Shown piece after piece: positions 2,090 to 10,731 of a stretch of 10,731 nucleotides of DNA. The stretch spans positions 1 through 10,731 of the forward strand of contig PJAB01002050.1 in the NCBI GenBank assembly GCA_002887195.1, in the 5' to 3' direction. Both the position numbers and the translations under genes were made by a program. Source of the DNA: Chrysochromulina parva. Its lineage: Eukaryota > Haptophyta > Prymnesiales > Chrysochromulinaceae. The first letter of the stretch is position 1. Every line of letters begins with the position of its first letter. Below the pieces are notes generated by a model. The model was not told where the DNA came from and ran no database searches. It saw nothing but the letters and a program-made list of their open reading frames with translations.

Positions 2090-5000
2090 CTAAAGCTGTC
2101 TAACTAGAATGTTGGCAACGCCGCTCACCGCAAACGTGTGCGAAACGGCGACGAGCGCCTGCGACGCGCTAGGCGGCACAGCCAGCAGCTGAATCGTCTC
2201 GCCAGCGGCGCCGTGACATCGCGCTAGGAGTCCACCATCTGCGGCCGTCTCCACCGACGCGAAGCGTGTCCGCGAGACGCCCACCCACTTGCTGCCCACC
2301 TCCCCGAGGAGCGCCCACCTGATGAGGGAGGTAATCAGGTTCAATCAGGTGCAATCTACCCATCTCCCCGAGGAGCGCCCACCTGATGAGGGAGGTAATC
2401 AGCCGTTGCAATCAGGTGCAATCAGGTGCAATCTGCCCATCTCCCCGCGAGGAGCGCCTACCCGTTGCTGAATCGTGGCGCGATGGTCCAGAGCTGAAAG
2501 TCGAGCTCGCCCCAAGACTCCAATGGCAGCGGGCTGGCAGAGTCGAATGGACGAACCACGTGCGGAGACTTGGTCTCCACCGCCACGTAGCCATGGGCAG
2601 AATCTGGCAGCGCGACCTCGTCGGTACGCAATTGGTACTTGGAGACGCCGACCGCCAGAATGTAAAACCAGAGCTGGTGGGAGACGGTGGTGTGGGTCGA
2701 TAGGACGACGCCGCTTGGTCCCCTGGCTCCAGGAGAGACGCGTGGCAGGATGTTGGCGTCGATCGGAGTGGCGGCGCGATCAGGTTGCAAGAGGACTCCG
2801 TCAGCACGGCATGAGCGCATGATGAGCGACGGATCTTCTGCCCCAATGAGGTCGCCGAGCATCACTGGACCGGTGGAAAGGGTCGCAGCAGCGGCGTGCA
2901 GGCGCGCGTTGTGCTCGGCGGACGTCCGCCACGTGCGGCCGTAACGGCCGAGGGCCCGATTGGACGACCACCACAGGTCCTTTGAGGGGCGTAGCCCTAG
3001 TGCGTCGGCCAGAAGGGACGTGTAGCCGATGTTCCATTGCGGTGTGTTCGGGTAATAGTCCAAGCTCGCCCGTACTGTCGTGACCGCCTCGGACTCGGTG
3101 GACGCGAGGAGCATTCGGGGCCACGCCATGCAGTAGATGAGCGACACCCCCGCTGTCACAGCGGCGGCGCCTAGGTTCCGAAGCCACATGTGCGAGATCG
3201 TCGCGTTGGATAGCGTCGCATTGAGCGCCGCCCACTGATTGTACCTGCCAAATAAGGGCGGATCGGGCACAGGATGCGCATGGCTTTGTGCACGGTAGCA
3301 TGCATGGAGTGAACGGGAGAGAGAGCAGAGAGAGCAGACACGCGACTCCGAGACCGCAGCGCATAGGATCCCGAGTGGCAACGGCGGAAGGCTGGCAGGT
3401 GGGTGGAAGTGGTCCTCACATCCAGTCGATCTAGACGCCGGCCTCATCAGTCATCAGTCATCAGTCATCAACTGTACTCACATCCAGTCGATCTCGACGC
3501 CCACAAGCCCGCGAATCGCGCCAGTCTTGTTGCGCAGCAGCTCACTCCAAAAGCGCTCGTCCAAGGGCAGCGCGATGCCGCCTTCAGTTGGGTTGGCGCT
3601 ATAGCGGTCTCGCTCGACGACAAACTCATACCTGCCGCCGGCATTCGGGCACAGCACACATTTGGGTCAGTTGACGGCGGGACTGATGACTGATGACTGA
3701 TGACTGATGACTGATGACTGATGACTGATGACATTTGGGTCAGTTGACGGCGGGAGAGTTCGACCCAACCTGTTTGTGATTCGCCTACCTTCCGCCATTT
3801 TGCCGCGCGTAGCTCGTATCGGCAGCAAAGAAGCGTGTGTGCGCAAGGATGCCCCATCCTGTGGCACGTGCAAGCTCTGCTAGTGCCTTGTCGCCGCCCC
3901 TACCGTCGGACCCTGGGAACGTACTGGGAAGCGCTTCCCAAGTCTTCACCCCGTTGAGCAATCCCTTTGGATACCACCACGAGTCCATGAGCCACCATTT
4001 ATACGGCAGCAACACCTCGTCTGCATGGCGCTTCACGTCCACGATCGTCTCCCCGTAATCCTTGCAGCCATGCTTGGCCGGGGCGTCTGAGATGTTCACG
4101 GCGCACCCAAACAAAGAATTCGCGTAGCGTTCTCCCCACATGAGGGGCGTGCTTGCCGCGCTCGACCCCCCAGCTGGCGTCGCGCTCGGAGGTCGGCCAC
4201 CCCGCTCACGCGGTGCAGTGTTGTAATAATACCATGCGCCTTGCTGGGTGGCGTAGCCCAGAGAATTGAGCGACACGTCCGCTGCGGCGCGCGCTCGCTT
4301 CGCATCTGCCGTGCCTGCTCTACGAAGCACAAGCGCTCCCGCCTTGCGCAGTGCAGCGTTGAATCCGTCGTCGATGACCATGAGCATCTCCGCCTCGTAG
4401 CCCGCAGGGATGCTCCCGACAGAGCCTAGCACGCCAAAATCGAGGGAGCCACTCGTGAGATCGTACTCGTGAGAGGAGCTCATGAAATTGCGAAGGGGCA
4501 TCAGCGCCACAGTATCGTTCAAGCCATCGGCGCACGGCAGCACAATTGGCCCCGCCACCAATCCACCCAGATCGACCGCGGCCGAGCTCTCATAGAAGGC
4601 GAGTGGGACATTCCCCTTCCCATCGGCAGGCGCGTCGGTTACGAAGGTGGGCCGGTTGGTCACGGGGTGTCTCACACGGACCATCTCGCGCGGCGCAGGC
4701 TCGGCAGCAGGATCCACTCCTCGCGCCGCTCCCGCCTGCCATGAAAAGCCTTTGCAGCGCCGCTCAGCAATGCAGAATGCCTTAGCATCGCCGAAGCGAG
4801 CATACGGAGCCTGGCCCCAAGGCGGTGTCAGGCTCATTGCGTCGAGCTCCTGCTGCACTGTCCTGGATGCGCGTGCACGGCCATCGTACGCGAGCGTGAG
4901 CACGCCACGTGCGATCCGGCTGCGGTTCCCTCCTCCTACCCCAGGCTCTTGCTTGAGGAAGGCTGATTGGGCGACCATGGCATCAAAGGAGCCAAATGCG

Positions 5001-5617
5001 GGCTCGGGGGAGTTGCCACCGCCCGCCCAGCTCAGCCAGTTCCGATACGCGCCGCCGAATGAGAGCCGAGGGAAGGCCGATGCGAGGCCGCAGTCATTGA
5101 AGAGACCAGCTGCCGGGCCGCCGATGAAGCCACACGGACGAGCTGAGGAAGTACCGTGCAGCACCCTCTGGAACTGTGTCGAAAATACGATGGCACTTTG
5201 CGCAGCATACGCACGGACCGCCGTCACCACAGAGTTCTCTGGTGCCATGCTCCACTCAAGAATGGCGGTGGAGAAGCATCCGAGTGCGTCGCAGCCAGTG
5301 CTTGTTGAGGCCGCCTTGAGCACTAGTTGCCGGATCTCGCCACCCGATCGAATGTATGGGCTCGAGAGGCTCGACGATGCCACCAGCCTGCCACGCGACG
5401 TTATCTCCAGGCTTCCAGATCGGGAGTTGATGCGCACTAGAAGGCGACCAGCGTCGAGGAGCACCGTATCTGGTAAAGGAGGTGAAGGTTCCATCGTGGA
5501 CTGGCTGCCTCTCAACACGGCCGCATAAGTTGAATCTGATACGACCTTCCTAAGTGCGCTAAGCGTGATGATAGCCGAACAAATCGTGAGCAAGAGCACG
5601 GTGCAGCGCGCCCGCAT
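2090..5617 (-). CDS. GH36/raffinose-synthase-like (clan GH-D) glycosidase, type II membrane or secreted, 4 exons
   Basis: My model joins 5617-3789, 3631-3482, 3244-2462 and 2318-2090 (996 aa); all junctions keep frame. The start at 5617 is chosen because it gives a signal anchor (MRARCTVLLLTICSAIITL); an in-frame ATG at 5764 would bury that segment and leave only 23 bp to the divergent gene. A large N-terminal part of about 500 residues, probably a beta-sandwich, precedes a barrel-like part: YKWWLMDSWWYPKG near residue 540, then GLVGVEIDWM with Asp658, then IYCMAWP and VRASLDYYP with Asp722. The order matches raffinose synthase and GH36 enzymes, whose nucleophile lies in a K-x-D motif and whose acid/base Asp lies in RASDD(F)YP, followed by a HNA-type helix and a GPV-LGD segment. 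The C-terminal exon (WALLGEVGSKWVGVS) fits the closing beta domain. Expected role: hydrolysis or transfer of alpha-galactosyl or related sugars in the secretory path. Glu replaces the family Lys two residues before Asp658, so substrate and activity are uncertain. Confidence 0.8.
2292..2461. repeat. Three copies of the exon 4 start separated by two related inserts
   Basis: On the plus strand the 27-29 nt exon fragment occurs at 2292-2318 (the real exon), 2356-2382 and 2433-2461 (with a 2-nt CG insertion). The inserts 2319-2355 and 2383-2432 both begin CTGATGAGGGAGGTAATCAG and contain CAATCAGGTG repeats. Confidence 0.95.
2319..2461 (-). other. Intron 3 of the glycosidase gene (143 nt), two tandem introner-like units
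   Basis: The donor is CAACGG|GTAGGCGCTC and the acceptor CTCATCAG|GTGGGCGCTC. Joining gives S-N-G-W-A-L-L-G-E-V-G-S-K-W. The intron consists of two consecutive units, 2461-2383 (79 nt) and 2382-2319 (64 nt). Each starts with a copy of the exon 4 beginning and ends in CCTCCCTCATCAG. CTGATT motifs, possible branch points, repeat inside each unit. Confidence 0.85.
3245..3481 (-). other. Intron 2 of the glycosidase gene (237 nt), duplicated donor site
   Basis: The donor is GACTGGAT|GTGAGT and the acceptor TATTTGGCAG|GTACAATC, giving E-I-D-W-M-Y-N-Q-W in frame. The last 20 exon bases plus GTGAG are repeated 62 bp inside the intron (3415-3439 against 3477-3501, 24/25 identical), so a second GTGAG donor exists. 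A CT-rich tract precedes the acceptor. Use of the inner donor would run straight into the TGA of ATG-TGA. Confidence 0.85.
3415..3501. repeat. 25-bp direct repeats around a short TCATCAG array
   Basis: Copies at 3415-3439 and 3477-3501 differ at one base (3433 A against 3495 C). The 37-bp spacer contains three TCATCAG units plus TCATCA (3444-3470) on the plus strand. That is the reverse orientation to the array at 3683-3730, so the two can base-pair over 27 nt. Confidence 0.95.
3632..3788 (-). other. Intron 1 of the glycosidase gene (157 nt) with nested 7-mer array
   Basis: The donor reads GGAAG|GTAGGC and the acceptor GGCGGCAG|GTATGAG. Joining restores R-Y-E-F-V-V-E-R-D-R in frame and removes an immediate in-frame TAG. 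Inside, a 25-bp perfect direct repeat (plus-strand copies 3658-3682 and 3731-3755) flanks a 48-bp array of the heptamer CTGATGA (TCATCAG in the sense of the gene). Confidence 0.85.
3658..3755. repeat. Heptamer array flanked by 25-bp direct repeats
   Basis: The plus strand shows ACATTTGGGTCAGTTGACGG-type copies starting at 3658 and 3731 (period 73, 25/25 identical). They are separated by nearly seven units of CTGATGA at 3683-3730. The structure is that of an insertion with a long target duplication, or of slippage repair, inside an existing intron. Confidence 0.95.
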
Positions 5618-5787
5618 TGGCAAAAACCGTGCGAGTTCACACAGCGTTTCAAAGGTCAGTCCAGCTTGTTTCCAACGTGAACTTTTGTCCGACGTGACGA
5701 ATTTCCGACGGCGCGTTGAGAAGTTTTTGTTTGTTTCCGAGGGCAACGTAGGATTCCTATGCAATTCAACCCCTATAGAGAAGCACT
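5618..5787. promoter_or_regulatory. Divergent promoter region between glycosidase and dioxygenase-GT61 genes
   Basis: Only 170 bp separate the two chosen start codons, so both genes probably share a bidirectional promoter. The stretch is less GC-rich than the flanking coding sequence and holds T-rich runs (GTTTTTGTTTGTTTCC near 5725) and two ACGTGA motifs near 5678 and 5692. No convincing TATA box is seen. If the glycosidase instead starts at 5764, the gap falls to 23 bp. Confidence 0.6.
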
Positions 5788-8700
5788 ATGCCCAAGCGCA
5801 AGCCATCGGCGAAAGCAACGTCCTCAGAGGCGAAATCTTTATTGCCCGTGGCCTCCACAGTAGCTTTGTCGGGTGCAGTACTCATTGCGGCCGCACTATT
5901 TGCTCGGTGGCCCGCCAGCAATCCGCCGCCGCCGCTGCCGCGATCAGAGAGTGAGATCAGACGTGTCACTAAACCATCCGCAGTGACAACAGACGAGAGC
6001 CATGATCATGCTGCTTCTGCGGCCTTCCACGCGACCGCTGCATCTGCTACCAACAAGGGCCCCAAGGAGCGGCCACAAGTCAAGGTCCTCCCGCTGAGCG
6101 TTTCCGAGAGCGCAGCTGCCGCTCCTGCTGGAACGCAGCGGGCCGTAGCATCCTTGAAAAAGGGCGGCTTTGCACGGCTCGAGGACTCGTTGCCGACCGC
6201 GCTACTGGAGTCGCTGCGCAACGCGACGGCAACCTTTGTAGATCGACTGCGCGCGATCGCCTCGCCTGCCTGGTCGCACTTTGGTCTGGCTGAGGCCCAC
6301 TTCTTCCAAGAAGTGTGCTTCGCGGACGTGATAGGTCGGCAGCCCGGCAAGTACGAGTGCGCGCTGCCCGAGCTCGAGGACTCGTCGGTGCTTTCATGGC
6401 TCGCACGAGAGGCTGCGTGGGTGTCGGTGGTACGTGACGCGCTTGGAGCGGATGCGCGGCTCGTGTCGGCGACGGTGATCGTGTCGATGGCACTGTCGCT
6501 TGAAGGGCGGCCCGCGCGCAACCAGTCATGGCATGCGGATGGGTCCTTCCGAGCGGGCAACGAGACGTGCGTCAACTGCGTCGAGACGGACGAGGCGTAT
6601 GGCATGGTGGTGTACGTGCCGCTGGCAGACGTGGAGGTGGGTGGCGGCGGTGAGGTCGAGTACGTTGTCGGCTCACACCGCGATGAGGCTTTGTATGCCG
6701 AGATGGTGCATGTCAACCAGGGAGGCAGCACGACCGACGAAGTCCTTGCACGCCACCCGCAGCTAAGGATCGATCGGCCGCGCCTCAAGGCCGGCACGGC
6801 GCTCATGTACGACTACCGGCTGCAGCTGTCAGCCCTGCATGCAAGTGCTCACCATGGCGCCCTCCCTCCCCACAGGTACGACTACCGGCTGCAGCACCGC
6901 GGCCTTGCACGCTCACTGCCGCACGGCCATCGGCCGATCCTCAAACTCGACTTTTTCCGGCGCGGCCACTCGGACTATGACAACCTTTGGTGCGTGCATG
7001 CGGGCACGGCGCTGCTCGCGGGGCCATGCGGCGCGCTGCTCAACGAGCAACTCGACTTGACAGACACACTCTGCCGTGGGTGGGCGGGCAGCGGCCGCTG
7101 TGCCGAGCCTCACGTGCTGCAGCGCTGCCAGCGCACGTGCTGTTTGCACGGCCACCCACCGGTGCCGCTCTCGCTGCCGCACGAACAGCTGGTGCAGCAG
7201 CAGCAGCGGCGGCTGGATGGGGCTGCCGACGCGGCGGCCGCCAAGGCGGCGGTCGTGCTCGATGCATGGGCCCTGCCCGATGGCGCCCAGGACGGCACCC
7301 AGGTGATGGTAGCCTCGCCGCCTCTGGCGCTGCGCTCCCTCTCCGATGTCGAGACGATCGATGGCGTCGGCTGGCAGAACACGCCCTTTGAGCGCGTCGC
7401 ACCGTCCGCCAAGCGCGGCAACCCACCCACGGCGGAGCTCAGGGCGGGAGATCCGAGCTGCGGAGCTGACGGTCGTATCGAGCTGAGCTGGAGTCAGTGC
7501 CCGGATTGCTGCTGCTTGGCGCACCCGGGTCGCTCCTTCCCGTGGCAACCAAGCTACGGCCCACGCACGGGCCTTGCCTTGCTGCGCCACGCGTACGTGG
7601 CGATTGATGGTCTTGTGATCCGCCTCGACGCTCCGCCGGCGACCCACACGACCACCCACGACGCTAGCCACGCGGGGCTGCGACCGTTGGGAGGGGTGCA
7701 GTATGCCTGGGCGGGGAGTGGCGTGTCCGAGATGCTTGTGGCCTCGGGGCTCGCGACTGTCGGCGCTGGCGGCCTCGAGGGAGCGACGACCGGTAAGGAG
7801 GCCGCGGGGACGCCCGAGCCGTTGCTGCATGTGCCCGGAGGCCTCGCCACACTCAAGGTCGCTGACGCCGTGTGGATCACGCGACGTGCGAATCTCACGA
7901 GCCCAGCGGCCGCGCGGCGCGTCGAGCCCTTCTGGGAGTGGTACGACTACCCTGCCAAGCTCGGGGGGGGCGTGGGGCGCTGCGCCACCGAGGTCGATGA
8001 CGTGGCCGCTGTCGGCCCTCGAAGGGCTGTCGTGCGCCTCTACGGGCGGCTGGCGGCGCTCAACCGCTTTATCTCGGCGTCATTCTACCACTGGCTAGTC
8101 GACACGCTGCCCTTCGTCGAGATGGCGCGATTGCACGAGGCCACCCGCCGGCGAGCGGCGGGCACGCCCACAACGGCGCGCTCTAGGCTGCGCTACCTCG
8201 TGTACGGCTCGCCCTTCGCCCGAGCGCACCTCGACCTCCTCGGCATCGATCCGGAGGATGTGATCACGTACGATCCGTGCGTGCTGTACCACGGGGCCGA
8301 GGTGCTCGTGCCCTTCGGGAGCGGTTCGGGCCTCACGATGCTCTCGAAGCCGCACTATCTCGCCGTGCGCCGTGCACTTCGGGCACCAGCGATGCGCCAG
8401 CTGCCGGCGCCGGCGCCAGCTGCGAAGCGGCCGTTGAATGAGGGCTGTGCGCCGGCGGTGCTCATCGTGCGCACGGCGAGCGACTCCCAATCGAGGTCGT
8501 TCCTTTCGGAGGCGCCGGCCGTCTTGGAGACGATGCGCCAGCGCCTGCCGGTGGGGGCGCACGAGAGCACACGCGTCGAGTTGGGCGCGCTCACCGCGCT
8601 CGAGCAGCTCGCCCTCTTTTCACGTGCGGGGATCGTTGTCGGTCTGGAGAGCGGCGGGCTTGCCAATGGGCTCTTCCTCGCCGAAGGGGCGACACTGGTC

Positions 8701-8901
8701 TCGCTCACGCCCACCGACGGCCGGCGCGACTGCGGCGAGACGTGCTATTGGCACATGGCGAGCGCCGTCGGCGTGCGCTTCTACACGTTCCTCATCCCCC
8801 GCGTCGGCTGGGAGAGTACTGACGTGCGCGTGCCGCTCGATAGGTGGGGCGCCTTTCTTGAGGACCTTGGCAAGGAGATCGGATGCCGGCGGCCTGTGTG
8901 A
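5788..8901 (+). CDS. Fusion protein: PhyH-type dioxygenase, ShK domain, GT61-like glycosyltransferase
   Basis: My model joins 5788-6806 and 6876-8901 (1014 aa). The N-terminus MPKRKPSAKATSSEAK followed by a hydrophobic stretch (about residues 18-40) is a type II signal anchor, placing the rest in the Golgi or ER lumen. Residues about 115-380 form a Fe(II)/2-oxoglutarate oxygenase of the phytanoyl-CoA dioxygenase family: iron ligands His249 and Asp251 (WHADGSF), His347 (LQHRGLAR) and probable 2OG-binding Arg359 (GHRP). Residues about 406-430 are a Cys-rich ShK module (LCRGWAGSGRC...CQRTCC). From about 578 to the end it resembles GT61/DUF563: HAYVAIDG, FYHWLVDTLP at 743, EQLALFSRAGIVVG and GLESGGLANGLF at 929. 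The usual GT61 motif is G-x-HGAGLAN; here His is replaced. Likely role: hydroxylation plus sugar addition on one secreted substrate. The domain assignments are strong, the activity is inferred. Confidence 0.88.
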   Translation: MPKRKPSAKATSSEAKSLLPVASTVALSGAVLIAAALFARWPASNPPPPLPRSESEIRRVTKPSAVTTDESHDHAASAAFHATAASATNKGPKERPQVKVLPLSVSESAAAAPAGTQRAVASLKKGGFARLEDSLPTALLESLRNATATFVDRLRAIASPAWSHFGLAEAHFFQEVCFADVIGRQPGKYECALPELEDSSVLSWLAREAAWVSVVRDALGADARLVSATVIVSMALSLEGRPARNQSWHADGSFRAGNETCVNCVETDEAYGMVVYVPLADVEVGGGGEVEYVVGSHRDEALYAEMVHVNQGGSTTDEVLARHPQLRIDRPRLKAGTALMYDYRLQLSALHASAHHGALPPHRYDYRLQHRGLARSLPHGHRPILKLDFFRRGHSDYDNLWCVHAGTALLAGPCGALLNEQLDLTDTLCRGWAGSGRCAEPHVLQRCQRTCCLHGHPPVPLSLPHEQLVQQQQRRLDGAADAAAAKAAVVLDAWALPDGAQDGTQVMVASPPLALRSLSDVETIDGVGWQNTPFERVAPSAKRGNPPTAELRAGDPSCGADGRIELSWSQCPDCCCLAHPGRSFPWQPSYGPRTGLALLRHAYVAIDGLVIRLDAPPATHTTTHDASHAGLRPLGGVQYAWAGSGVSEMLVASGLATVGAGGLEGATTGKEAAGTPEPLLHVPGGLATLKVADAVWITRRANLTSPAAARRVEPFWEWYDYPAKLGGGVGRCATEVDDVAAVGPRRAVVRLYGRLAALNRFISASFYHWLVDTLPFVEMARLHEATRRRAAGTPTTARSRLRYLVYGSPFARAHLDLLGIDPEDVITYDPCVLYHGAEVLVPFGSGSGLTMLSKPHYLAVRRALRAPAMRQLPAPAPAAKRPLNEGCAPAVLIVRTASDSQSRSFLSEAPAVLETMRQRLPVGAHESTRVELGALTALEQLALFSRAGIVVGLESGGLANGLFLAEGATLVSLTPTDGRRDCGETCYWHMASAVGVRFYTFLIPRVGWESTDVRVPLDRWGAFLEDLGKEIGCRRPV
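6807..6875 (+). other. Intron of the dioxygenase-GT61 gene (69 nt), flanked by a 20-bp direct repeat
   Basis: The donor CTCAT|GTACGACTACC and acceptor CTCCCCACAG|GTACGACTACC lie at the first base of a perfect 20-bp repeat (6807-6826 and 6876-6895). Removal joins L-M-Y-D-Y-R-L-Q-H-R and brings the distal iron-ligand His to normal context. The intron is 23 codons long with no stop, so retention would be silent to frame. The body holds GCATGCAAGTGCTCACCATG and a pyrimidine tract. Confidence 0.85.
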
Positions 8902-9152
8902 AATTCCACACGAGCGGCGGGAGGGACCGCGGAGATAATTACGAAAAAACTGAGACTGTCTGAATTCCGCACAATTGAACTGTGTTTTCCTCTCCTCTGA
9001 AACCAAGTTAGTGCTCAGCCCCTCCTTCCTCGTTTGGGGCTCCCCCGCGAACAGTTTTAACGTTCACACGAGTTTTCACGCCGAGCTGCCGCCAAGACGG
9101 GCCGACACCCCGCTTGTGGAGGGAGAGGTTTGTGCCGCGAACACACGAGATC
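8902..9152 (+). other. Intergenic region between the GT61 fusion and exostosin genes
   Basis: No separate gene is supported. The left part should be the 3' untranslated region of the fusion gene, the right part the promoter and 5' leader of the exostosin gene. An AT-richer patch with GGAGATAATTACGAAAAAAC lies at 8929-8948. A 5' exon carrying a membrane anchor for the exostosin could be hidden here, since the chosen exostosin start lacks one; I cannot place it. Confidence 0.45.
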
Positions 9153-10731
9153 ATGGCGCAGCCATCGTGCGCTGGCCGTCCCCGGCTCTACGTCTATGAC
9201 CTGCCTTCGCGCTACCGTGTAGACCCGCGCGATGCGCCCCCGGGCATGGGCGCACCGTCCAGCTTGCCTCCGTTGGAGCACATGCCGTATGGCGTGCGGC
9301 TGTGGCACACTGCCGAGTTTGGGCTCGGCAGCCTCTTCTTGCACCGTGCCTCCACCTACCAGTGCGCCACCACGGACCCCGAGCTGGCTGATCTGTTCCT
9401 GGTGCCCACTTTCTCGAGCCGCTCCTCCAACCGGCCGACGGAACGCGCTGCTGAGCCGAAAGAACAAGTCGAGAAGCTAGGTGGCCGGCTCCGCGCTCTT
9501 TTCACACGGATTCGTCAGGTGCGCGTCCACAGGTGCGGCGCCGGCGCGCGCCACGCGAGCCACGCGGGCGCCCGCATCGGTGGCGGCTCGCGCACAGCGG
9601 GCCGGCCTTCGCGCGGCGTTCAGTCGCGCAGTGGTCCGTCGCGCAACTGCTCCGCGCTTGAGGCGCGTGGCGGTGCGGATCACATACTGATCAACCCGCG
9701 CAATGGCGCGCCGTACGAGCGACACCCGATTTGGGAGCTGGACTACATGGACGCGCGGCTGGGGAACGTCACGCTCCTCGACCTGATGGAGCCCGGCGAC
9801 TGGCCTTGGGTGGGCGACTACAAGCCCGAGGCACGATACCATTCGGTAGCCTAGCCGAGCGGCGTGCGCACCATCTGAGTGGATCTGTTTGCTTGTTGAT
9901 GGTATCTTGATGGCATCTGAGTGCGTCCCTCATCAGGTACCCCACCCGAGCTCCCTGATTGCCTCTGATTGCTTCTGATTGCCTCTGATTGCCTCTGATT
10001 GCCTCTGATTGGGCTTGAGTGCGTCCCTCATCAGGTACCCCACCCGAGCTCCCTGAATGCCTCTGATTGCTTTTGATTGCCTCTGATTGGGCTTGAGTGC
10101 GTCCCTCATCAGGTACCCCACCCGAGCGTCGTCCACCTCGAGCCGAGCGCACAAGGATTCCCATGGCGCTCCGAGCACGCCCGCCCGCTGCTCGTCGCCG
10201 GGGCATTTGGGGTGCAGCACGGCGGTCGCGAGGTGGTCGCCCTCCGGCTGGCCTTGCAGAGGGCGTGCGACCGGGCGTCCGAGCCCATCTGTAAATTCCA
10301 TCGCCTCGGCGACAAGGGGAACGAGCCGGGCAGCGCGAAGGCGAGCTTGGGCGCGGTATGCGAGCCAGCGCACTCGATCGCGCGACTGCATGCAAGTGCA
10401 TGCCAAGTGCTCATCATGGCGCCCCGCTCCCCACAGGCACGCGAGCCGTCGTGGCACTCGATCTCGCGACTGTACTGGAACGCCACGTTTTGCCTGCAGC
10501 CGCCGGGTGACGCCGCCTCGAGGTGGCCGTTGGCATGCACGTGCTCCTCACGGCGCCCTCCCCCCCTTTCCCCACAGGTGACGCCGTCTCGAGAAAGGCC
10601 ATCGTCGACTCCCTCGTCCTTGGGTGCATCCCCGTCCTCTTCCACAGGCGAGCGCCATGGCGAGCGCCTCTGATGACCTCTGATTGCCTCTGATGACCTC
10701 GTCCTTGGGTGCATCCCCGTCCTCTTCCACA
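9153..10731 (+). CDS. Exostosin-family (GT47-like) glycosyltransferase, 3' end outside window
   Basis: My model joins 9153-9845, 10113-10355, 10437-10506 and 10578-10647, then continues past the edge; at least 358 residues. The start at 9153 is the first ATG before the family's opening motif (RPRLYVYDLPSRY). Then follow DLFLVP, GGADHILINPRNGAPYERHP, a VPHPSVVHLEP strand, RPLLVAGAFG, and the diagnostic C-terminal sequence SRLYWNATFCLQPPGDAVSR and KAIVDSLVLGCIPVLFH. These match exostosin-type enzymes that elongate cell-wall or heparan-like polysaccharides in the Golgi. No signal anchor is visible, so a further 5' exon may be missing. A stretch of about 45 residues (about 9519-9650) is Arg/Gly/Ala/Ser-rich where the family is usually short; a 105-nt in-frame intron 9519-9623 (CAG|GTGCGC to TTCAG|TCG) is possible. 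Together with its neighbours it suggests surface-glycan synthesis. Confidence 0.85.
9846..10112 (+). other. Intron 1 of the exostosin gene (267 nt), three tandem introner-like units
   Basis: The donor CCATTCG|GTAGCCTAG and final acceptor CCCTCATCAG|GTACCCCACC join to A-R-Y-H-S-V-P-H-P-S. Three units follow each other: 9846-9936, 9937-10034 and 10035-10112. Each starts with GTA and a copy of the exon 2 beginning (strongly decayed in the first) and ends GCGTCCCTCATCAG. Units 2 and 3 contain four to six CTCTGATTGC-type repeats. Without splicing, a stop appears at the third codon. Confidence 0.85.
9937..10127 (+). repeat. Triplicated exon fragment GTACCCCACCCGAGC with (CTCTGATTGC)n inserts
   Basis: The fragment GTACCCCACCCGAGC is identical at 9937-9951, 10035-10049 and 10113-10127, the last being exon 2 itself. 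Copies 1 and 2 continue CTCCCTGA(A/T)T into decamer repeats based on CTCTGATTGC, then GGGCTTGAGTGCGTCCCTCATCAG-like tails. Confidence 0.95.
10356..10436 (+). other. Intron 2 of the exostosin gene (81 nt), diverged direct repeat
   Basis: The donor GGCGCG|GTATGCGAGCC and acceptor GCTCCCCACAG|GCACGCGAGCC join to L-G-A-A-R-E-P-S-W-H. The first 33 nt (10356-10388) are a diverged copy of the first 36 nt of exon 3 (10437-10472): one 3-nt gap and several substitutions, ending in a shared GCGACTG. The body carries CATGCAAGTGC and TGCTCATCATGGCGCCCC. The length is 27 codons without a stop. Confidence 0.82.
10507..10577 (+). other. Intron 3 of the exostosin gene (71 nt), 16-bp direct repeat
   Basis: The donor CCGCCGG|GTGACGCCGC and acceptor TTTCCCCACAG|GTGACGCCGT join to P-P-G-D-A-V-S-R-K-A-I-V-D. 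The repeat 10507-10522 matches 10578-10593 at 15 of 16 bases. The body has GCATGCACGTGCTCCTCACGG and a long pyrimidine run before CACAG. Confidence 0.85.
10612..10731 (+). repeat. 35-bp perfect direct repeat around a 50-bp insert
   Basis: Copies 10612-10646 and 10697-10731 are identical over all visible bases (CCTCGTCCTTGGGTGCATCC and onward). The repeat may extend past the edge. The insert shares CTCTGATTGC with the exostosin intron 1 units. Confidence 0.95.
10648..10731 (+). other. Probable GC-donor intron 4 of the exostosin gene, cut by the window edge
   Basis: After ...V-L-F-H the sequence reads CCACAG|GCGAGC, then CTCTGATGACCTCTGATTGC-like repeats, then an exact second copy of the preceding 35 nt (10612-10646 repeated at 10697-10731). 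The period of 85 nt is not a multiple of three, so retention would shift the frame. The simplest reading is a GC-AG intron whose acceptor is the CCACAG at the end of the second copy, one base outside the window. Confidence 0.6.

Follow-up and report, generated by a model that had tools for sequence, protein, structure and literature searches.

Introners with long, variable duplications of exon sequence in the genome of Chrysochromulina parva

How does an intron come to begin with a copy of the exon that follows it? The question is raised by a stretch of 10,731 nucleotides (nt) from Chrysochromulina parva, hereafter the window, which lies on contig C2050 (PJAB01002050.1) of a 45.07-Mb assembly (G000) of 2,199 contigs; 58 matches to light-harvesting proteins in the assembly identify a photosynthetic eukaryote, an alga. 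From the letters of the window, an earlier reading, here termed the original prediction, had described five introns in three genes whose first bases copy the first bases of the next exon. Following these segments through the assembly, we find that they are introners with long, variable duplications, which a DNA transposon with a fixed cut does not explain.

All five introns are present exactly at the predicted positions, and each starts with a copy of the next exon's start, ranging from exact to decayed. The bodies between the copies fall into two recurring families (A and B), each ending in a 3' splice site. The introns and host genes are:

6807..6826, plus strand: copy of the downstream exon start, 20 nt, an exact copy of 6876-6895 that supplies the donor GTACG
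6827..6875, plus strand: family A body with core GCATGCAAGTGCTCACCA(C/T)GGCGCC, ending in CCCCACAG (acceptor)
6876..6895, plus strand: second (exon) copy of the duplication; splicing would yield ...TALMYDYRLQHRG... in frame
5788..8901, plus strand: GT61-domain gene (PF04577, 32.3 bits), interrupted by the 6807-6875 intron
9153..10647, plus strand: exostosin GT47 gene (PF03016) with three introners spliceable inside the window
9846..10112, plus strand: family B array intron, 267 nt, with a decayed first copy, bodies plus copies at 9937-9951 and 10035-10049, and the acceptor CATCAG at 10112
10356..10436, plus strand: family A intron, 81 nt, with copy 10356-10388 (~33 nt, decayed), body 10389-10436 and exon copy 10437-10472
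10507..10577, plus strand: family A intron, 71 nt, with copy 10507-10522 (16 nt, one mismatch), body 10523-10577 and exon copy 10578-10593
2319..2461, minus strand: family B intron, 143 nt, of two copy-plus-body units, with copies 2433-2461 and 2356-2382 and exon copy 2292-2318 (~27-29 nt)

The intron at 6807-6875 is 69 nt long and opens with the 20-nt exact copy. Introns 9846-10112 and 2319-2461 are arrays of copy plus body; in the former, the exon begins at 10113 and two internal copies (9937 and 10035) precede the exon copy. Removing 9846-10112 restores the GT47 reading frame, and the PF03016 match, 29.7 bits with exon 1 alone, rises to 82.1 bits once all three introners are removed (profile positions 5-257 of 293). 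For the GT61 gene, taken over 5788-8898, one homologue was found (P0001; 1,037 amino acids, 99% identical, 50 member sequences).

Body families and exon copies across the assembly

Family A consists of a body of ~45 nt with the core GCATGCAAGTGCTCACCACGGCGCC and the end (C/T)n-CCCACAG, closing in ...CCCCACAG. Allowing up to three mismatches to GCATGCAAGTGCTCACCACGGCGCC, this core was located at 1,706 genomic places (851 + 855). Family B is a run of 10-nt CTGAT-containing repeats with the end ...CCTCCCTCATCAG, found at 611 + 538 = 1,149 places with up to two mismatches; reversed-pattern controls gave 0 for either family. The 10-nt period of B bodies is visible in their autocorrelation (0.454 at a shift of 10 and 0.376 at 20, against values of 0.19-0.34 for the remaining shifts tested, in 51 bodies). 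Introners are recognized by nearly identical introns scattered over many unrelated positions in a single genome, a pattern represented here by 1,706 + 1,149 places.

For comparison of loci, we used 20 family A neighbourhoods and 20 short ones, followed by 40 B and 40 A places taken from exact-match lists. Apart from light-harvesting and long interspersed nuclear element (LINE) loci, L139 and L140, all loci were selected through sequence of one of the two families, in some cases with a piece of the window that carries family A; the resulting counts apply to such family-chosen loci rather than to all introns in the genome. The pooled non-redundant set (the window, L009-L048 and L054-L133) contained 215 family ends, 117 of A and 98 of B.

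The predicted enrichment of donor-side copies of the downstream exon is present in the sampled family loci. When exon starts were compared with the donor side of their own intron in further loci picked by body sequence, a score of at least 10 was reached in 31 of 40 cases for A (46 cores, less six with no acceptor in reach) and 29 of 47 for B, that is 60/87 own pairs; with exons swapped between loci, the figures were 7/194 and 2/231, or 9/425. Of 95 A cores, 91 entered an earlier test, in which 79% had a repeat score of at least 13, compared with 17% of 376 random places in the same introner-rich loci. The window and 20 loci together contained 315 direct-repeat pairs (spacing 40-400, score at least 14), versus one in a single order-1 Markov resample; 152 of the 315 are non-overlapping, a set that includes some ordinary repeats of coding sequence or of arrays. 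Chance repeats are ruled out by the resample and the swapped-exon controls. A further test for GT..AG units, run after removal of low-complexity and periodic repeats (34/66 pairs vs 0-30 at slid offsets), was not relied on, as interior AGT triplets inflate one offset.

A clear copy (score at least 12) lies at the donor side of 112 of the 215 family ends. Its median length is 27 nt in both families, with the middle half at ~20-33 nt and a 5-95% range of 15-47 (A) and 16-54 nt (B). The 33 copy pairs that are still identical span 12-40 nt, where 12 is the cut-off, and there is therefore no fixed duplication length. Introns have a median length of 77 (A) and 80 nt (B) and mostly measure 63-130 nt. 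After the acceptor, 86 of 117 A exons start with GT, which a copy acting as donor would require; among those with a clear copy, 61 of 69 do. The A search pattern did not select for GT; the B pattern contained GT after CAG, which biases the corresponding B share (77/98). Genome-wide counts and swapped controls thereby bear out the core of the original prediction, a repeated body between long exon copies in which the copy provides the GT and the body the acceptor. The body probably also supplies the branch site, judging by motif. Not all introns of this alga are of the copy-flanked kind: in three light-harvesting loci with a gap between domain pieces (L141-L143), no direct repeats spaced 40-400 apart exceed a score of 10.

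Splicing, mirror-type insertions and truncated copies

Three observations indirectly support splicing of these segments. Intron lengths are spread evenly over the three remainders modulo 3 (A 23/23/23, B 15/15/13), which indicates intron-like behavior because translated inserts would not be uniform. Together with the restored GT47 domain, these lengths suggest that the segments lie in coding sequence and that their removal would keep the frame. The third observation is an empty site. A gene at locus L024, in which a 73-nt family A introner follows ...QRRM, was spliced in silico and searched, giving 23 protein matches, of which the first 16 were aligned. P0135 and P0136 run into the introner (...RRMYETALEQLGLHASAHHGAPSPSPQV, then end) and P0134 begins inside it, while P0122 and P0123, 96 and 98% identical to the spliced query, continue through without it (...RRMYETALQPHLTSRK...). 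Ten homologues at greater distance, P0124-P0133, also lack the introner; P0137 is interrupted at another point. Presence or absence between relatives, which the original prediction had proposed to compare, thus differs at one site at the protein level. We interpret this site as one where the introner is present in some and absent in other members of the species or its near relatives, absence being the ancestral state. Precise intron loss is a possibility, and if the P0122 and P0123 records derived from complementary DNA (cDNA), they would instead show exact splicing. P0123, known like P0122 as a protein, is probably genomic rather than cDNA-derived because it starts at what in G000 is the GTG after another introner of the same gene. 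The two copies of the duplication at this site already differ at a few positions, so the insertion need not be very young. As a separate observation on this gene, P0122 starts at a mid-gene GTG, and P0123 ends after MQVD at a point where the frame continues in G000; each could mark a further intron at a site that has none in G000.

The proposal that the target supplies the donor and the insert the branch site and acceptor holds for the main class but not for a rarer mirror class. In this class (type II), GT or GC opens the body and AG closes the duplicated stretch, and the second copy would therefore act as acceptor. Four such copies, in L022 and L024 (both minus strand), L096 and L123, have duplications of 19-30 nt. 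One exact type II donor module occurs at just 15 genome places and is therefore rare.

Other insertions deviate at the acceptor end. Once arrays, in which cores lie no more than 170 nt apart, and repeats scoring below 12 were left out, 67 single A insertions were available: 48 end exactly at the acceptor, 14 fall short of it and five run 4-14 nt beyond. Among the 14, three only appear short, their duplication extending into the acceptor; a further four belong to the mirror type, and the other seven lack a splice-site pair. The repeat unit is a multiple of three in six of these seven (45, 66, 45, 42, 63 and 69 nt) and not in the remaining one (74 nt). Introner cores with no acceptor and a repeat unit divisible by three occur in L097, L101, L104 and L113, and a 63-nt insertion in L116 ends at the acceptor yet has a copy start without GT. 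In L018 (~2510-2690 and 5116-5160), acceptor-less bodies, once as a 51-nt tandem array, read as the peptides ACKCSPRR and ACKRSPRR within a long open frame. Judged by these frames and ends, not all insertions are spliced, and truncated copies persist mostly in frame.

The junctions of truncated copies were examined for homology between the target start and what the element would have continued with. At this right junction, the 11 truncated A copies show 8, 1, 2, 9, 7, 2 and 9 nt (no splice pair) and 0, 10, 3 and 2 nt (mirror type), that is, 7-10 nt in five of 11, with a mean of 4.8 versus ~1.1 in their own controls. Across all 24 insertions tested, misfiled ordinary ones included, the mean was 4.08 versus 1.21, and 1.9% of control draws reached 5. 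For B, the repeat tail agrees with the duplication's end over 2.4 nt on average, compared with 0.41 in 300 control draws, in the 15 of 51 bodies kept for this test (those with a clear period and a score of at least 10). At the far boundary of the duplication, 98 copies revealed no endonuclease motif beyond a mild excess of C at position -1 (0.48 vs 0.35). One composite insert of 99 nt was also observed in L015 (minus strand, 4609-4730), where an A body is combined with a piece resembling exon and with a second core, itself truncated. With one mismatch, 34 nt of the middle piece also precede an introner on another contig (compare L018, ~1950-2010), and the insert may stem from copying out of an array intron or from related genes.

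Insertion mechanism and relation to known systems

The original prediction took the length of the duplications to indicate a different insertion or repair mechanism. Variable duplication length and junction microhomology support this view and stop short of proving it. We lean towards a process in which microhomology guides the copying of intron sequence into a break with staggered ends, perhaps through target-primed reverse transcription, as a fairly probable account. Each insertion would be a copy of part of an existing introner. A cut or opening of the target, with a stagger that varies in length, would give the 15-50-nt duplication, and the ends would be joined at short homologies, with the acceptor side usually kept and the far end lost. 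Splicing selection would then retain those insertions with GT at their start or AG at their end, and survivors in exons would be shaped by selection into mainly those with GT starts, AG ends or in-frame units.

Target-primed reverse transcription by LINEs, which also mobilizes short interspersed nuclear elements (SINEs), leaves variable target duplications, simple-repeat tails and truncations with microhomology. Here, the best single mechanism would be a LINE-type enzyme that reverse-transcribes intron RNA, primed by the target or by microhomology. The 48 of 67 insertions that end exactly at the acceptor suggest a template ending at the intron's 3' end; moreover, A mostly keeps its acceptor end, loses its donor end and seldom passes the acceptor, as expected of reverse transcription from the 3' end of intron RNA. 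Duplications of variable length are present, as in LINE and SINE insertions. Simple-repeat tails are seen as the 10-nt repeats of B and little in A, and truncation affects both sides rather than one. The assembly encodes LINE-type proteins: RVT_1 matches lie at five places, one of which also has an overlapping frame with Exo_endo_phos, so that a reverse transcriptase and an endonuclease are present; as to a shared tail, two 8-nt motifs were found in the LINE pieces examined. LINE-type reverse transcriptase proteins were noted at L049 and L051-L053, and open frames of 1,345-2,709 amino acids are listed for four of the five places. Unlike LINEs and SINEs, the bodies here measure ~45 nt and act as introns, with no link to a LINE found in the pieces examined. 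A more specific version, possible and more tentative, is that of retro-introners: excised intron RNA would be the mobile template, its 3' end, or an internal stretch that agrees with the target in a few bases, would prime reverse transcription at a staggered exon nick, and the resulting 15-50-nt duplication would be co-opted as the missing donor or acceptor. If so, any intron fragment could found a new intron wherever an exon offers GT or AG.

Several observations weigh against this account. Six of the 11 truncated copies have just 0-3 nt of right-junction homology, and left-junction homology in A is weak, with a mean of 1.39 versus 0.52 and none in 38 of 67. The LINE pieces examined hold no A core, just two lone 8-nt tail motifs, and provide no link between element and enzyme. 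Exact ending at the acceptor may reflect selection rather than a template end, and exon bases past the acceptor that are absent from copy 1, in five of 67 insertions, leave room for genomic DNA templates. No clear copy is seen at 103 of the 215 ends, for which decay or other origins could account. Splicing itself is deduced from DNA and protein sequence, not RNA reads, and P0001, the only homologue of the GT61 gene found, reads the 6807-6875 intron as coding, as gene callers with no splicing model do. Public gene calls of such genomes likely contain introner peptides of this kind.

The main rival is template switching at the DNA level, which explains the homologies equally well and which we nevertheless consider somewhat unlikely. 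Here, a broken or stalled strand would jump by microhomology to an introner, copy the body and return 15-50 nt behind its start, through microhomology-mediated break-induced replication (MMBIR) or polymerase-theta-type repair, with no RNA step. The 7-10 nt of right-junction microhomology in five of 11 truncated copies, the B tails, the variable duplication length, the arrays of copy plus body and the L015 insert, with its body, exon-like piece (34 nt of it also beside another introner) and second core, all suit this model. Less easily accommodated are the 48 of 67 inserts that stop exactly at the acceptor, with five passing it, even though in-frame extensions should be tolerated; bodies are also mostly introner sequence even where no splice pair exists, in loci that were, however, chosen for introners. 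A further model derives introns from tandem duplication of exon segments containing AG|GT, with later decay (the Rogers-type model). Here the intron is exactly one repeat unit and arrays exist, but the central part of the unit belongs to a body family shared among more than 2,800 places. Pure tandem duplication is therefore rejected for A and B, whose bodies are families, and as a general explanation we find it scarcely credible; it could apply to some repeats with no family body.

Filling of staggered double-strand breaks with any DNA at hand, the survivors being those that splice, has been described for Daphnia and would fit the direct repeats at opposite intron ends and the microhomology. 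The Daphnia repeats are reported as 4-12 bp long (PMC4202315), and inserts outside any repeat family with repeats of that length are not what we see: inserts here come from few families, also in the absence of a splice pair (again in loci chosen for introners), which makes this explanation very improbable. The same low standing applies to a cut-and-paste DNA transposon, that is, an introner resembling a miniature inverted-repeat transposable element (MITE) with an unusually long target duplication. In its favor, most non-ascomycete introner families with a readable signature are described as bearing at least one mark of DNA transposition (Gozashti 2022, PMC9860276), and the acceptor end is defined in 48 of 67 insertions. 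Against it, identical copies span 12-40 nt with no fixed length, the far end is variable and some truncated copies join at microhomologies. Terminal inverted repeats were also not apparent in A: a complementary word of at least 6 nt between the first and last 20 nt was found in three of 63 bodies, the same rate as with ends swapped (30/630). In B, the far end is not fixed and pairing between CTGAT repeats and the TCATCAG end is possible; such words occur there in 14 of 39 bodies (swapped 151/390). A transposon with a fixed duplication is rejected on the variable length (median 27 nt vs 3-9 bp) and, in A, on the lack of inverted termini.

These comparisons leave microhomology-guided copying as our preferred reading and place the elements among introners by kind, with an insertion signature, in length and variability of the duplication, that is new. 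As the original prediction stated, known introners have much shorter target duplications, 3-9 bp for the earlier families as given by Gozashti et al. (PMC9860276). Among the matches listed in a search of the open literature, which left supplements, preprints and most subscription papers outside, there was no report of introners with duplications this long. A donor derived from the duplication is already known (Gozashti et al. 2022, PMC9860276, Fig. 2B). In Symbiodinium microadriaticum, also an alga, family 1 is described there as repeated introns with their own 3' splice site and a 5' site from the duplicated target, as here, but with a 4-bp duplication and terminal inverted repeats in place of ~15-50 nt, variable in length, and in A no inverted repeats. 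The same source depicts Chrysochromulina sp. introners with their own 5' splice site (Fig. 2C), an arrangement like our type II, with 4-bp duplications versus 19-30 nt in our four type II copies. The algae Aureococcus and Pelagomonas also carry introner elements (PMC9481584, PMC9860276); for Pelagomonas, an intron length peak of ~210 bp is given, compared with mostly 63-130 nt here, and for Aureococcus sp. an 8-bp duplication with both splice sites inside the element. Amoebophrya has spreading introns with direct repeats at their borders, described as 3-5-nt direct and 8-20-nt inverted repeats and defined among non-canonical introns (PMC7789003). Daphnia neointrons share the exon-end direct repeat at the opposite intron end and differ by the 4-12-bp repeats, with no repeat family described in the accessible text (PMC4202315). 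For 213 introns, Rogers and Bendich (2025, PMC11782384) list border repeats of 4-30 bp with a mean of 11.4 bp; the rows with 25-30 bp are plastid group II/III introns of 72-84% similarity, and the accessible text mentions no shared body family.

How introns originate in bulk is a long-standing question, for which short-duplication DNA transposons are the best-documented answer. The genome studied here exhibits intron gain with long, variable duplications that would double as splice sites, partial junction microhomology and splice-less copies mostly in frame. With 33 identical duplications and one presence/absence site, the system looks recent, and the mechanism should be testable on fresh insertions. 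The screen of Gozashti et al. (PMC9860276) appears, from the accessible text, to seek introns similar over roughly their whole length; such screens could miss introners one third of which is a locus-specific exon copy.

Further duplications and variants

The window contains three further duplications beyond those originally predicted:

10612..10731, plus strand: likely mirror-type insertion, with 35-nt exact copies at 10612-10646 and 10697-10731 and a body at 10647-10696 of CTGATGACCT-like repeats
3658..3755, minus strand: 25-nt exact direct repeat (3658-3682 and 3731-3755) around a (CTGATGA)n insert, apparently within an existing intron (placed by eye)
3415..3501, minus strand: direct repeat of 25-28 nt flanking a TCATCAG-rich insert; same gene as 3658-3755

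The first of these probably belongs to the mirror type: a GC donor is possible at 10648 and the second copy, ending at the window edge, would supply the acceptor; left unspliced, the frame runs into stops after ...CIPVLFHR. The apparently intronic position of 3658-3755 suggests that the long duplication itself is not produced by splicing selection.

Acceptor variants were noted in L112, in L122, at ~3247 of the window (minus strand) and at ~1280 and ~8870 of L013; they comprise an A core with CTCCCTAATTAG replacing CCCCACAG and another acceptor-like motif, (T/A)ATTTGGCAG. These variants suggest module exchange between introner families. Lastly, the end of an IMG/VR contig (L139) is a 90%-identical allele of contig C1930 of G000. 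The differences include two 10-nt units in a B-type tail and, within an intronic copy, a gap of 14 nt. The contig is catalogued as viral, and its final ~375 nt (L139:4180-4554) match the alga assembly at 90%; it is probably a chimeric assembly.

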